DNA from: Hyphomicrobiales bacterium
GTDB lineage: Bacteria; Pseudomonadota; Alphaproteobacteria; Rhizobiales; Rhodobiaceae
Reading direction: 5' to 3'
Length of the DNA: 64,000 nucleotides
Assembly (NCBI GenBank): GCA_002869065.1
Contig: PKTR01000003.1
Coordinates: 276,891-340,890 of the forward strand
Translations under genes and position numbers: made by a program
Part shown: piece by piece, positions 20,498 through 24,804 of the stretch
Numbering within the stretch: position 1 is the first letter of the stretch
Layout: every line of letters begins with the position of its first letter
Notes under the pieces: model-generated
Told to the model about the DNA's origin: nothing
Database searches by the model: none
What the model saw: only the letters and a program-made list of their open reading frames with translations

Positions 20498-20566
20498 GGA
20501 CGATTCTCCGCCGCCATGCGGCTTACAGCTCCCCAGAATCCCCGTATGTATCTAATGAACGATTGG

Positions 20567-20700: not shown

Positions 20701-20716
20701 TGGCACGCCTCATGCA
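20701..20716 (+). promoter_or_regulatory. Predicted sigma-54 promoter of flgFGAH
   Basis: TGGCACG-CCTC-ATGCA fits the -24/-12 consensus TGGCACG-N4-TTGCA with one mismatch. Transcription would start near 20727, giving a leader of about 60 bases to flgF. Rod, ring and hook genes are sigma-54/FlbD dependent in Caulobacter, so the class is plausible. Confidence 0.6.
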
Positions 20717-20737
20717 ATCCAAAACCCGACGGCCGAT

Positions 20738-20786
20738 CTGGGGAGATTGTGCCGTCCGATTGGGGAGCTTGGGGAGTTAACCTGCG
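20738..20786 (+). promoter_or_regulatory. flgF leader with three GGGGAG motifs
   Basis: CTGGGGAG (20738-20745), TTGGGGAG (20760-20767) and CTTGGGGAG (20768-20776) stand in tandem; the last provides the ribosome-binding site, with ten bases to the ATG at 20787. Three exact complements of CTTGGGGAG occur after flgH at 24205, 24226 and 24259, so the translation start region could be masked by pairing with that RNA. The complementarity is seen directly; the regulation is inferred. Confidence 0.5.
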
Positions 20787-21524
20787 ATGGAAAACGCGCA
20801 GCTTATCGGCTTGTCGCGCCAGTTGGTCTTGCGCCGCCAGATGGACGTGTTGGCGAACAATGTCGCCAACATCAACACCAATGGCTTCAAGGGCCAGAAG
20901 CTCGGCTTCGAGGAATACATGATGCCGGTTGCGCGGGCGAACAGCTTCCAGCCCAGCAACACCCGGCTGTCCTTCGTCCACGATTTCGGCTCGTCCTACG
21001 ACTTCGCCGCCGGCGCGACAGTGCAGACCGGCAACCCGCTCGACGTCGCGCTCAACGGCGACGGCTGGTTCGCCATCGAGACGCCGCAGGGCGAACGCTA
21101 CACCCGCAACGGCTCGCTCGGCATCAACGCCAACGGCGAACTGGTCGACCAGGCCGGCAAGCGGGTGCTTGGCGAAGGCGGCCCGATCACCTTCACCTCC
21201 AGCGACAGCGACATCGCGATCGCCGCCGACGGCACCGTCTCGACCAATAATGGCGTGCGCGGCCGCATCCGCATCGTCGAATTCGCCGACAACGATGTGC
21301 TCGAAGCAGCCGGCGACAATTTGTTCAAAGGCGACAACCCGCAAGCCGCCACCGCCGCGCGCGTGGTTCAGGGATCGCTGGAGAAATCGAACGTCAGCGG
21401 CGTTGTCGAGATCACCCGACTGATCGACATCACCCGCGCCTACGAGTCGATTGCCAAAATGCAAAAGGAAACCGACGACCTGCGTCAGCAGGCGATTTCC
21501 GATCTCGGCCGGCTGGAAGCCTGA
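20787..21524 (+). CDS. flgF: Flagellar basal-body rod protein FlgF
   Basis: A 245-residue proximal rod protein. It has the rod N-terminal motif (RRQMDVLANNVANINTNGFK), the middle beta domain (NGDGWFAIETPQGERYTRNG) and the C-terminal motif (VVEITRLIDITRAYESIAKM). It is the first gene of flgF-flgG-flgA-flgH, read from a predicted sigma-54 promoter. The leader and start region carry three GGGGAG motifs complementary to repeats beyond flgH. Length is normal for the family. Confidence 0.95.
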   Translation: MENAQLIGLSRQLVLRRQMDVLANNVANINTNGFKGQKLGFEEYMMPVARANSFQPSNTRLSFVHDFGSSYDFAAGATVQTGNPLDVALNGDGWFAIETPQGERYTRNGSLGINANGELVDQAGKRVLGEGGPITFTSSDSDIAIAADGTVSTNNGVRGRIRIVEFADNDVLEAAGDNLFKGDNPQAATAARVVQGSLEKSNVSGVVEITRLIDITRAYESIAKMQKETDDLRQQAISDLGRLEA

Positions 21525-21554
21525 CGGTAGCCGCCGGACCAAGGAGCCTAGACC

Positions 21555-22340
21555 ATGAAAGCACTGTATTCCGCCGCGACCGGCATGATGGCGCAGGAAC
21601 TGAACGTCGAGGTCATCTCGAACAACATCGCCAACATGCGCACCACCGGTTTCAAGCGGCAGCGCGCCGAATTCCACGACCTGCTCTATTCGAGCCAGCG
21701 GCGCATGGGTTCGGTCACCTCGCAGGCCGGCACCATGGTGCCGAGCGGCGTCCAGATCGGCTCCGGCGTGCGCACCGTCGCAACACCCCGCGTGATGTCG
21801 CAGGGCAACGTCAACTCGACCGAGAACGAACTCGACGTCGCGATCCGCGGCGAAGGCTTCTTCGTCGTCCAGCTGCCCGACGGCCGAACCGCCTACAGCC
21901 GCGACGGCTCGTTCGAGCGCGACGCCAATGGCACCCTGGTCACGTCGGACGGCTACACCATCGAGCCCGGAATCACCATTCCCGACAATGCCTCGAACCT
22001 GACCATCAACCAGTACGGCACCGTTCAGGCGATCATCGGCACGGCATCCGAACCGACCACGCTTGGCCAGCTCCAGCTTGCCCGTTTCGTCAACAAGGGC
22101 GGCCTTGACGCCATCGGCGACAACCTCTTCCTCGAGACCTCGTCGAGCGGCCCGGCCCAGGTGGCGACCGCCGGCGAGGAAGGCTACGGCACGCTGCTGC
22201 AGTCCCATCTCGAACTCGCCAACGTCAACGCGGTGACCGAAATCGCCGACCTGATCGCCGCACAGCGCGCCTACGAGATGAACGCCCGCGTCATCAAGGG
22301 CGCCGACGAGATGCTGTCGGCCACGGCCAACTTGCGGTAA
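21555..22340 (+). CDS. flgG: Flagellar distal rod protein FlgG
   Basis: A 261-residue distal rod protein, the usual length (about 260). The N-terminal motif (MMAQELNVEVISNNIANMRT) and C-terminal motif (LANVNAVTEIADLIAAQRAY) are characteristic. The start is ATG with AAGGAGCC upstream, 30 bases after flgF. It forms the rod that crosses the periplasm inside the P and L rings. Confidence 0.96.
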   Translation: MKALYSAATGMMAQELNVEVISNNIANMRTTGFKRQRAEFHDLLYSSQRRMGSVTSQAGTMVPSGVQIGSGVRTVATPRVMSQGNVNSTENELDVAIRGEGFFVVQLPDGRTAYSRDGSFERDANGTLVTSDGYTIEPGITIPDNASNLTINQYGTVQAIIGTASEPTTLGQLQLARFVNKGGLDAIGDNLFLETSSSGPAQVATAGEEGYGTLLQSHLELANVNAVTEIADLIAAQRAYEMNARVIKGADEMLSATANLR

Positions 22341-22345
22341 CGGAA

Positions 22346-23371
22346 ATGACACACCTCGCCCTCCGCCCGCTCACCGCCGCGATCCTACGTCTGACGCTGG
22401 TCGTCGCCTGCGCCGCCGCCTTCGTGGTCGCCGTCAAGCACAGCGCATCGGCCGAAGAGCTCGGTCGCCCGACGCTGCGTCCGGCCGTCACCGTGCGCGG
22501 CGATGTCGTCACCATCGGCGACTTCTTCACCAATCCGGGCCGGCTCGCCGACACGCCGCTGTTCCGCCCGCCCGATCTCGGCGAAGTCGGCACCGTCGAC
22601 GCCTGGTCGGTGCTCGACGCCGCTCATGCAGCGGGTCTCGCCAACGGTACCACCGGCGGCGTTCGCGAAGTCGTCGTCACGCGGGCGAGCATCGCCGTCA
22701 CCCCCGATCAGATCACCGCGCTGATCTCCAGGGCAATCGGCGACCGGCTGGCGATCAAGGCGCCGAACACGGTTTCGGTCACCTATACGCGCCTGCCCGA
22801 ACTGGTCGACGCGGATGCCGGCGCGGTCGATCCCGTGCGGCTATCCTCGCTGGATTGGTCGCGCACCAGCGGCCGCTTCAACGGCGTCGTCATCATCGAC
22901 CGGGGTAGCCACGAGCGCCGCTTCAGTGTCAGCGGAACCGCGCTCGAAATGGTCGACGTCGTGGTACCGCAGCGTTCGCTCGCCAAGGACGCCGTCATCA
23001 GCCGTGGCGACCTGGAAATCATCCGCCTCGCTCGCGGTCAGGTCGACGAGCGCAACGCCATGACGCTGGAAGAGGTTATCGGCATGGCGCCGCGCCGCTC
23101 GCTGCGCCCTGGTCAGCCGATCGGCAAGAGCGACCTCGCCCAGCCGCTCCTCGTGCGCCGTGGCGAAGCCGTGACCGTCGTCTACCAGGTGCCGGGCCTC
23201 ACCCTGACCGCCCGTGGCCAGGCGCTCGAATCCGGCGCCGAAGGCGACATGGTCAACGTTCTCAACAGTCAATCCCGCCGCATCGTGCGCGGCAGTGTCA
23301 TCGCGCGTGGCAAGGTTCAGATCATCACCGGCCAGCAAAGCGTTATCAAACTCTCGGAGGCGAGCCGATGA
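22346..23371 (+). CDS. flgA: Flagellar P-ring assembly chaperone FlgA
   Basis: A 341-residue periplasmic chaperone for the P-ring protein FlgI. The N-terminal signal or anchor covers about residues 5-35. A C-terminal SAF-type domain (about 200-330; VVVPQRSLAKDAVISRGDLE, GMAPRRSLRPGQPI) is typical. The alphaproteobacterial form is longer than the 220-residue enterobacterial one. It starts five bases after flgG and its stop overlaps the flgH start (ATGA). Confidence 0.92.
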   Translation: MTHLALRPLTAAILRLTLVVACAAAFVVAVKHSASAEELGRPTLRPAVTVRGDVVTIGDFFTNPGRLADTPLFRPPDLGEVGTVDAWSVLDAAHAAGLANGTTGGVREVVVTRASIAVTPDQITALISRAIGDRLAIKAPNTVSVTYTRLPELVDADAGAVDPVRLSSLDWSRTSGRFNGVVIIDRGSHERRFSVSGTALEMVDVVVPQRSLAKDAVISRGDLEIIRLARGQVDERNAMTLEEVIGMAPRRSLRPGQPIGKSDLAQPLLVRRGEAVTVVYQVPGLTLTARGQALESGAEGDMVNVLNSQSRRIVRGSVIARGKVQIITGQQSVIKLSEASR

Positions 23372-24111
23372 ACCGGCTGACAACCCTGATCCTCGTTGCG
23401 GCCACCGCTGCAGCCCTAACCGGGTGCGGCGCCGCCGACCGGCTGAAGAATGTCGGCAAGGAACCTTCGCTCAGCCCGATCGAGAACCCGCAGGCCATGC
23501 CCGGCTATCAGCCGGTGCAGATGCCGATGCCGCAGCCGACCCCGGTGCACTACAATTCGAACTCGCTGTGGCGGTCGGGCGCCCGCGCCTTCTTCAAGGA
23601 CCAGCGCGCCCAGCGCGTCGGCGACATTCTCACCGTCAAGGTCGAGATCTCCGACAAGGCCGAGTTCGACAACACCACCGAACGGACCCGCTCGGCAACC
23701 GAGAACATGGGCGCCGACGGCGTGTTCGGTCACCTGCTCGACAAGACGATCCTGCCGGGCGGCGTTTCGTCCAGCGCCGCCGTCGACCTGAACTCCGACA
23801 ACTCTCACAAGGGTTCCGGCTCGGTCGACCGGTCTGAAAAACTGGAAACCAATGTCGCCGCCGTCGTCACCCAGGTGCTGCCGAACGGCAATCTGGTGAT
23901 CGAGGGCCGCCAAGAGGTGCGGGTCAATTTCGAAGTGCGCGAACTCATCATCGCCGGTGTCGTCCGGCCGGAAGATATCAACGCCCAGAACACCATCGAG
24001 TCGGACAAGATCGCCGAAGCCCGCATCTCCTATGGCGGCCGCGGCCAGATCACCGATGTCCAGCAACCCCGCTACGGTCAACAGGTGCTCGATATCGTGA
24101 TGCCCTTCTAG
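23368..24111 (+). CDS. flgH: Flagellar L-ring lipoprotein FlgH
   Basis: A 247-residue outer-membrane lipoprotein forming the L ring. The signal peptide ends in a lipobox (ALTGCGAAD, Cys at about residue 20). The conserved body contains LWRSGARAFFKDQRAQRVGD and a C-terminal VQQPRYGQQVLDIVMPF. The start ATG overlaps the flgA stop. It is the last protein gene of the flgFGAH operon; the hairpin-rich region with complements to the flgF leader follows the stop. Confidence 0.95.
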   Translation: MNRLTTLILVAATAAALTGCGAADRLKNVGKEPSLSPIENPQAMPGYQPVQMPMPQPTPVHYNSNSLWRSGARAFFKDQRAQRVGDILTVKVEISDKAEFDNTTERTRSATENMGADGVFGHLLDKTILPGGVSSSAAVDLNSDNSHKGSGSVDRSEKLETNVAAVVTQVLPNGNLVIEGRQEVRVNFEVRELIIAGVVRPEDINAQNTIESDKIAEARISYGGRGQITDVQQPRYGQQVLDIVMPF

Positions 24112-24132
24112 ACCGAAACCCCACCGAACCTT

Positions 24133-24350
24133 CATCCGGGCAATCCGGCCCGGATGCCCCTCCTCACCGCCGCCCCGACGGCGCGGCGCCAGGCGAACTA
24201 CGCACTCCCCAAGACCGTTCGACAGCTCCCCAAGCCAGAACGGTCCGGCACGGTTTCACTCCCCAAGCGGGCCGTGCCACCCCCTTCCCCCGCCGTTCCC
24301 CAACGGCGCGGGAAATGAAAAGGCGGCTTCCAGAGGAAGCCGCCTTTTTT
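24133..24350 (+). ncRNA. Candidate multi-hairpin small RNA or regulatory 3' UTR
   Basis: After flgH there is a string of perfect stems. 24133-24156 has stem CATCCGGGC. 24168-24183 has stem CGCCG and loop CCCCGA. 24213-24245 has stem GACCGTTC and a 17-nt loop. 24247-24278 has stem GGCACGG and an 18-nt loop. 24291-24308 has stem CGCCGTT and loop CCCC. Last is the terminator at 24320-24350. CTCCCCAAG occurs three times (24205-24213, 24226-24234, 24259-24267), the last two in loops. Each is the exact complement of CTTGGGGAG at the flgF ribosome-binding site; the third extends to 11 bases. I infer a processed 3'-UTR RNA acting on flgF. An unprocessed UTR that pairs with its own leader is the alternative. 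Confidence 0.4.
24320..24350. terminator. Bidirectional terminator between flgH and dksA
   Basis: AAGGCGGCTTCC, loop AGA, GGAAGCCGCCTT followed by a T-run (TTTTTTGTTTT) on the plus strand; the minus strand also ends in TTTTC. It closes the flgFGAH transcript and the convergent dksA transcript. Confidence 0.85.
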
Positions 24351-24387
24351 GTTTTGCTGAGTGCGTAAAGGTTCTGAAGCCGCGCCC

Positions 24388-24804
24388 TTAGTCGTCGCGG
24401 TAGATCCGCTCGCGGCGTTCGTGCCGCTCCTGCGCCTCGATCGACAGGGTTGCGATCGGACGGGCATCGAGCCGCTTCAGGGAAATCGGCTCGCCGGTTT
24501 CCTCGCAATAGCCGTAGGACCCGTCTTCGATCCGCTTCAGTGCCGCATCGATCTTGGCGATCAGCTTGCGCTGACGATCGCGAGCCCGCAATTCGATCGA
24601 ACGGTCCGTCTCCGACGACGCCCGATCGGCGATGTCGGCGTGGTTTTCGTTTTCCTTCTGCAGGTTCTGCAGAGTCTCCTGACTCTCCCGCAGAATGTCA
24701 TCCTTCCAAGCGATCAGCTTGGCACGGAAATACTCCCGCTGACGATCGCTCATAAACGTCTCGTCCTCGGAAGGGCGATAGTCCTCATCAACAACTGCAG
24801 TCAT
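24388..24804 (-). CDS. dksA: RNA polymerase-binding protein DksA (degenerate zinc finger)
   Basis: A 138-residue secondary-channel factor that binds RNA polymerase and adjusts transcription with ppGpp. The coiled-coil region (about 30-95; REYFRAKLIAWKDDILRES) and the C-terminal TraR/DksA signature (YGYCEETGEPISLKRLDARP) are present. Only one of the four zinc-finger cysteines of the enterobacterial form remains (CEET, then LSIEA), as in the alphaproteobacterial DksA I know. ATG at 24804 is preferred over GTG 24819 because of GAGGGTCGG upstream. Its position between flgH and fliX is usual in the order. Confidence 0.9.
   Translation of the reverse strand: MTAVVDEDYRPSEDETFMSDRQREYFRAKLIAWKDDILRESQETLQNLQKENENHADIADRASSETDRSIELRARDRQRKLIAKIDAALKRIEDGSYGYCEETGEPISLKRLDARPIATLSIEAQERHERRERIYRDD

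Follow-up and report, generated by a model that had tools for sequence, protein, structure and literature searches.

The flgFGAH operon in a 64,000-nucleotide (nt) stretch of the genome of a Hyphomicrobiales bacterium (assembly GCA_002869065.1, contig PKTR01000003.1, positions 276,891 to 340,890; hereafter the window) carries G-rich words in the leader of its first gene, flgF, and complementary C-rich words in the 3' untranslated region (UTR) that follows its last gene, flgH. We propose, with a probability of roughly 0.7, that this operon is a two-ended RNA device, the 3' end of which would feed back on flgF translation. Comparison of sequences strongly supports pairing between the two ends and their co-evolution as a code specific to lineages, and by the same comparison the match between leader and UTR is not due to chance; repression, processing and action in cis or in trans are what we infer. 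By analogy with known systems, the 3' end, either as a processed small RNA (sRNA) or within the messenger RNA (mRNA), would most likely block flgF translation, which would amount to negative autoregulation.

In the window, the flgF leader contains three GGGGAG motifs, the third of which, CTTGGGGAG, lies 10 nt upstream of the flgF ATG and is the presumed ribosome-binding site. Beyond the flgH stop codon (24111), several hairpins precede a strong terminator. The two ends are composed of the following features:

20728..20756, plus strand: leader hairpin formed by GACGGC and GCCGTC, its tip carrying CTGGGGAG; the first hairpin of the flg-Rhizobiales RNA (from the fold and the match to RF01736)
20738..20745, plus strand: leader motif 1, CTGGGGAG, at the hairpin tip
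20760..20767, plus strand: leader motif 2, TTGGGGAG; 20760-20769 is a 10-nt exact complement of 24224-24233
20768..20776, plus strand: leader motif 3, CTTGGGGAG, presumed flgF ribosome-binding site; 20767-20777 is an 11-nt exact complement of 24258-24268
24112..24352, plus strand: putative 3' partner element, a chain of hairpins after flgH with three anti-Shine-Dalgarno words (fold z -7.2; no Rfam match at the gathering threshold)
24205..24213, plus strand: CTCCCCAAG copy 1, outside the loops of both stems named below
24226..24234, plus strand: CTCCCCAAG copy 2, in the GACCGTTC/GAACGGTC hairpin (24213-24245)
24259..24267, plus strand: CTCCCCAAG copy 3, in the GGCACGG/CCGTGCC hairpin (24247-24278)
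24317..24349, plus strand: intrinsic terminator, 15 pairs and a T-run

The initial annotation of this region had located the leader motifs, the CTCCCCAAG repeats and the two UTR stems correctly, and its description of UTR repeats pairing over 9-11 bases with the flgF start region agrees with the longest exact complements found, which measure 11 and 10 nt. The strong terminator that it placed at the end of the hairpin chain was likewise recovered. The arms of the two stems begin at 24213 (GACCGTTC) and 24238 (GAACGGTC), and at 24247 (GGCACGG) and 24272 (CCGTGCC), and the whole 3' UTR of flgH, terminator included, folds better than 200 out of 200 shuffled sequences (z = -7.2). Counting both strands of the window, CTCCCCAAG occurs four times, always in the leader or the UTR, against a mean of 0.33 in shuffled windows, none of 100 of which reached four. 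Across the genome of 4.04 Mb the word is found 15 times versus 19 for a reversed-pattern control, so that it is not enriched in itself and it is the clustering that stands out.

In order to compare the two ends among relatives, 80 FlgG loci (the best 80 of 589), two congeners and another 100 operons from within the order were assembled, the last hand-picked among the matches listed (matches were present in 224 of 297 genomes), and the flgF start and flgH stop were located by tblastn. Seven of these 182 relatives (L017-L198) were dropped because one of the regions was missing or ran off the contig, which left 176 operons including the window, and removal of 7 exact duplicates and 18 near-duplicates reduced them to 151, again including the window. 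This set also takes in a small number of operons of other orders, such as those of Hirschia (L076) and Ponticaulis (L089). Forty control loci from the class were likewise hand-picked, from the 88 of 143 genomes with a match, and at least two of them (L227, L249), whose contigs equal in length those of L094 and L079 of the 151, are probably the same loci as these. The leader from -80 to +3 was compared with the first 220-230 nt after flgH, and the words considered were GGGG(G)A(A)G or GGGAG in the leader and CTCCC or CTTCCCC in the UTR. Related operons are not independent; a set of 61 representatives below 75% FlgH identity and tests between neighbours lessen the effect of kinship without removing it.

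Among the 151 operons, 107 carry both a leader word and a UTR word, 1 a leader word only, 8 a UTR word only and 35 neither (41, 1, 4 and 15, respectively, in the 61 representatives). With the strict pair GGGGAG and CTCCCC the corresponding numbers are 93, 2, 14 and 42, and 34, 0, 9 and 18 in the representatives. The initial annotation had named the retention of one motif without its complement in related genomes as the result that would speak against pairing; the few operons with a single word, set beside the 107 with both and the lineage-specific compensatory changes described below, strongly support its proposal that the 3' end would pair with its own leader. In other orders of the class, none of the 40 flgF-flgH control operons has a leader word with its complement in its own UTR, and the control leaders contain a GGGAG word in five cases and GGGGAG in none. 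Second copies of flgH, which probably belong to a lateral flagellar system, were available for 14 genomes (14 of 16 second matches were used) and show no CTCCCC within 230 nt of the stop, CTCCC being present in 3 and CTTCCC in 1.

The words are also oriented. GGGGAG occurs 124 times in the leaders and CTCCCC once, and the UTRs contain 226 CTCCCC and 5 GGGGAG. Since the same double-stranded word is present in both places, one could imagine an element acting at the level of DNA, a single protein-binding site that by chance took opposite orientations at the two ends. We consider this highly improbable in view of the near-absolute strand opposition (124:1 and 226:5), the placement of the UTR words in loops, the co-variation of word length and flanks, and the position of the window leader words downstream of the predicted sigma-54 transcript start described below.

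The decisive evidence is comparative: taken as a whole, leaders fit their own UTRs better than those of other operons. The longest complement between own leader and own UTR averages 8.57 nt, a value never above 7.89 in 5000 permutations, and own pairs share 2.36 8-mers against at most 1.35 (2.54 against a permutation maximum of 1.54 in the 61 representatives). When the UTR was exchanged for that of the nearest neighbor below 80% FlgH identity, the own pair was better in 79 cases and the swapped pair in 43 (29 ties, p=0.0014), and for neighbors at 60-75% identity in 96 and 30 (24 ties, p=3e-9), one neighbor pair possibly counting from both sides in such tests. With the core GGGGAG/CTCCCC held fixed, the flanks still pair over 3.53 nt against at most 3.08 in 10,000 permutations (76 loci), and among 28 representatives 1 permutation of 10,000 was as high. 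Likewise, the classes of word co-vary between the two ends (G4A p=1e-14, G3A p=1e-11, G5A p=2e-5, G4AA p=1e-4), and the base preceding GGGGAG co-varies with the base following CCCC, each at p<=5e-4. A complement in their own UTR is found for 130 of 202 leader words, whereas the UTRs of other loci provide one for 24% on average and the class controls for 3%. Where the upstream word differs from that at the ribosome-binding site, both complements are present in the UTR of 20 of 57 loci.

These comparisons bear directly on the possibility that G-rich ribosome-binding sites and C-rich terminator loops simply match by base composition. The UTRs are indeed rich in C (0.36, with 0.29 G) and the leaders in G (0.35, with 0.26 C). 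Nevertheless, permutation among UTRs of the same set favors the own pairs, the UTR beats every other 220-nt window of its locus in 37 of 151 loci where about 2.4 would be expected, and the 40 class controls lack the pair, so that this explanation may be practically discarded.

Individual lineages illustrate the drift of the code. Where the window has runs of four G and four C, its congeners L097 and L098 carry TTGGGGGAG at the ribosome-binding site and CTCCCCCAAG in the UTR, and the family formed by L159, L160, L161 and L164 combines CGGGGGAGCAA with GCTCCCCCG. In leaders of the Bradyrhizobium type (L082-L087), TGGGAG is the upstream word and AGGGGAG the one at the ribosome-binding site; their UTRs contain GAGCTCCCA, with the CTCCCA word, together with CTCCCCT. 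Pairing extends over ATGCTGGGGAGCAT (14 nt) in Pseudovibrio (L031, L035), over TGGGGAGCGTCG (12 nt) in Bosea (L050, L052) and over TTGGGGAAGTG (11 nt) in L023. As separate observations, the CTCCCCCAAG hairpin is repeated in three tandem copies with a 50-nt period in the UTR of L097 and occurs once in that of L098, and a hairpin containing GCGAACCTAGGCG, distinct from the anti-Shine-Dalgarno words, is common to the Bradyrhizobium-type UTRs.

Of the 263 UTR words that match their own leader, 174 (66%) are located in hairpin loops, compared with 564 of 3244 (17%) for other C-rich 6-mers, and the mean unpaired probability is 0.78 against 0.39 for the same two groups. Leader words of the upstream position are moderately accessible (0.63, n=147). 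The upstream leader hairpin, with a matched word of its own, suggests a second, kissing contact.

Several observations weigh against the two-ended device. Words at the ribosome-binding site do not exceed other G-rich 6-mers in openness (0.44, n=122, versus 0.41). Leader words are absent in 43 of the 151 operons, which implies that the device is dispensable; among the 108 loci with a leader word, 25, several Devosia among them, have no exact full-word complement in the UTR, and the rare classes G5AA (0 of 2 leaders matched) and G3AA (0 of 3) show no association (p=1). The advantage of the own pair is modest when neighbors at 80-100% FlgH identity are swapped (47 versus 28, 26 ties, p=0.037), and the class controls also display a slight own-over-swapped excess of 8-mers (0.63 versus 0.44), outside these words. 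A comparison of duplex energies with shuffled controls, suggested in the initial annotation, came out divided. As a simple duplex, leader and UTR reach -86.6 kcal/mol against a mean of -65.3 with the UTR or the leader shuffled (standard deviation 4.4 and 4.2), and 0 of 1000 shuffles on either side were as good; once intramolecular folding was allowed to compete in a cofold, 17 of 150 were, and the energy of the window is unexceptional. Energy was thus dropped as the main argument, since the value for the window alone is not decisive and the comparative evidence is.

As an observation on its own, 12 of 15 Methylobacterium and Methylorubrum loci (L041, L042, L044, L045, L047, L048, L053, L056, L057, L059, L060, L062, L064, L069, L072) have neither word, L041 has the leader word only, L062 the UTR word only and L060 (M. 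variabile) both, which offers a natural within-genus comparison of loss or gain.

The leader half has a relative in Rfam. A relaxed search over 4 kb matched the flg-Rhizobiales RNA, RF01736, to positions 20726-20832 with 34.4 bits (E 2.3e-4), below the gathering cut-off of 55 bits, which is passed by 4 of the 30 related loci scanned (L082 with 117 bits, L085 and L087 with 104 each, L067 with 56.9). The window shares with this RNA the position in the leader of a flgF operon and a 5' hairpin with a GGGA-type tip. By sequence, the window leader is a diverged relative of RF01736, and this half of the proposed device is already catalogued. The motif was published in a table of Weinberg et al. 2010 (PMC2864571), the row of which gives neither partner nor function; in the open-licence literature searched, one other paper names it, to try out a search program. 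What is added here is the 3' partner and the presence of leader words in many loci below the cut-off. For the 3' element, Rfam at its gathering threshold gave no family in the window or in the UTRs of 30 related loci, and the sub-threshold matches of a relaxed search are weak and resemble matches to terminators. Consequently, the remark in the initial annotation that it knew of no described RNA of this kind does not hold for the leader, and stands for the 3' partner, of which no description was found in Rfam or in the open-licence literature searched.

The operon and its promoter comprise these features:

20701..20716, plus strand: putative sigma-54-type promoter TGGCACGCCTCATGCA, read from the sequence by its GG/GC spacing
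20787..21524, plus strand: flgF, proximal rod (Pfam Flg_bb_rod, LlgE_F_G_D1, Flg_bbr_C)
21555..22340, plus strand: flgG, distal rod (Pfam)
22346..23371, plus strand: flgA, P-ring chaperone (Pfam ChapFlgA, E 2e-31)
23368..24111, plus strand: flgH, L-ring (Pfam FlgH, E 1e-60)

The order on the plus strand is flgF-flgG-flgA-flgH, with fliL divergent and a dksA-like gene convergent according to Pfam, and it is this order that identifies 20787..21524 as FlgF and not FlgG. The spacing of TGGCACGCCTCATGCA matches the -24/-12 consensus of sigma-54 promoters, and places the predicted start of the transcript near 20727. A loose sigma-54 pattern matches between -110 and 0 in 70 of 151 leaders, a count that is not a measure of promoter frequency.

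The 5' end presents G-rich words, at least one of them in an upstream hairpin and another at the ribosome-binding site of flgF, and the 3' end the complementary C-rich words, mostly in hairpin loops. We hypothesize the following course of events. Transcription of the full operon from the sigma-54 promoter would produce the 3' element, which, as a stable sRNA processed from the 3' UTR or as part of the mRNA, may kiss the leader loop and cover the Shine-Dalgarno sequence, thereby lowering flgF translation; the duplex might be cleaved by RNase III, and the outcome would be a negative feedback on the synthesis of rod and L-ring. With the ribosome-binding site among the targets, the simplest consequence would be that flgF translation is occluded, and an origin at the 3' end of the operon makes feedback the natural logic, since repression could start only once the whole operon has been transcribed. 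We would give even odds to a more specific version, in which a bivalent 3'-UTR RNA double-kisses the flg-Rhizobiales leader, at hairpin loop and ribosome-binding site, across the order, with a code that has drifted by lineage, and limits rod and ring synthesis after full transcription.

The device proposed covers action both in cis and in trans, and overlaps with a purely intramolecular alternative, in which the intact mRNA would circularize by pairing of its 5' and 3' UTRs, no separate sRNA would exist and the effect on stability or translation would be exerted in cis. We regard it as possible, with odds clearly below even. The first 3' word lies within 20 nt of the flgH stop in 37 of 115 loci and within 50 nt in 75, leaving little room for a separate promoter, and a search confined to the sigma-70 type found no such promoter at 24000-24420; moreover, icaR, discussed below, is a precedent of 5'-3' UTR pairing, reported to act in trans or in cis (PMC3868564). 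However, a word so close to the stop makes an intervening promoter less likely but is compatible with processing, or with a promoter within flgH, either of which could still release an RNA, and the compact chain of hairpins with its terminator could itself be a stable sRNA. Co-variation does not separate cis from trans.

A different proposal sees in the 3' element an anti-Shine-Dalgarno sRNA of general scope, with its main targets elsewhere and flgF as one of many. C-rich loops would suit many ribosome-binding sites, and the genome contains 27 TGGGGAG-N4-12-ATG sites against 8 in a reversed control, an excess that probably reflects ribosome-binding sites in general. Even so, the flank co-variation tracks the own leader, and in the 20 of the 27 sites that were translated no flagellar theme was apparent by eye, save for flgF and the fliL leader. 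The TGGGGAG of the fliL leader is the only one in the window outside the flgF leader and UTR and is not generally conserved. On this evidence a general sRNA seems unlikely. Trans targets in the genome were considered and rejected, CTTGGGGAG occurring there 15 times against 19 reversed controls. The fliL copy (20529-20535, minus strand) lies about 31 nt upstream of the fliL ATG. It was set aside as a second target of the device at large: of 148 loci, 18 have CTCCCC within the 300 nt that precede the flgF leader region, the contexts vary, and the presence of fliL there was not verified per locus. In this species it could be one.

Both principles invoked here are known from other bacteria. In the icaR mRNA of Staphylococcus aureus, a 3'-UTR UCCCCUG pairs with the Shine-Dalgarno sequence of the same messenger, leading to a block of initiation and to cleavage by RNase III (PMC3868564). 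The flgFGAH operon resembles it in that a C-rich 3'-UTR word is exactly complementary over 11 nt to the presumed ribosome-binding site of flgF, but icaR involves one gene and one word, whereas flgFGAH has four genes, several words mostly in loops, a second target in the leader hairpin and co-variation across many genera; homology is not expected. OppZ and CarZ of Vibrio cholerae derive from operon 3' ends that pair with their own mRNA and inhibit translation (PMC7398697); both are products of RNase E, and OppZ needs Hfq and acts at oppB within its operon (PMC7398697, PMC9438474). The 3' UTR of flgFGAH is similarly complementary to its own mRNA at a predicted site of translation start, although the target would be the ribosome-binding site of the first gene, in contrast to oppB inside the operon. 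Two RNAs from the 3' side of flagellar genes may be likened to the element by description only. CJnc230/FlmE of Campylobacter jejuni, from the 3' side of flgE, derives from an mRNA that depends on RpoN and shows complementarity to the consensus of ribosome-binding sites, but the direct targets reported for it are different messengers, those of flgM and of a regulator of flagella interaction (PMC11187230). FliX, from the 3' UTR of fliC in E. coli, counts its parent fliC among its targets (PMC10578931). The main text of two papers on Bradyrhizobium transcripts (PMC4842269, PMC5082802) does not contain 'flg' or 'flagell'. No source searched described the two principles in combination, the order-wide spread of such a device under a drifting code, or a partner for RF01736.

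With this partner, RF01736, published in 2010 and for which no function was found, gains a testable function, and the device seems to extend far past the loci that the covariance model can recognize. Its compensatory pairs, particular to lineages, lend themselves directly to swap experiments. If the device exists as proposed, this would be an operon regulated by the pairing of its own ends for which the evolutionary evidence is unusually broad, and would represent a post-transcriptional limit on the assembly of the flagellar basal body in Alphaproteobacteria.

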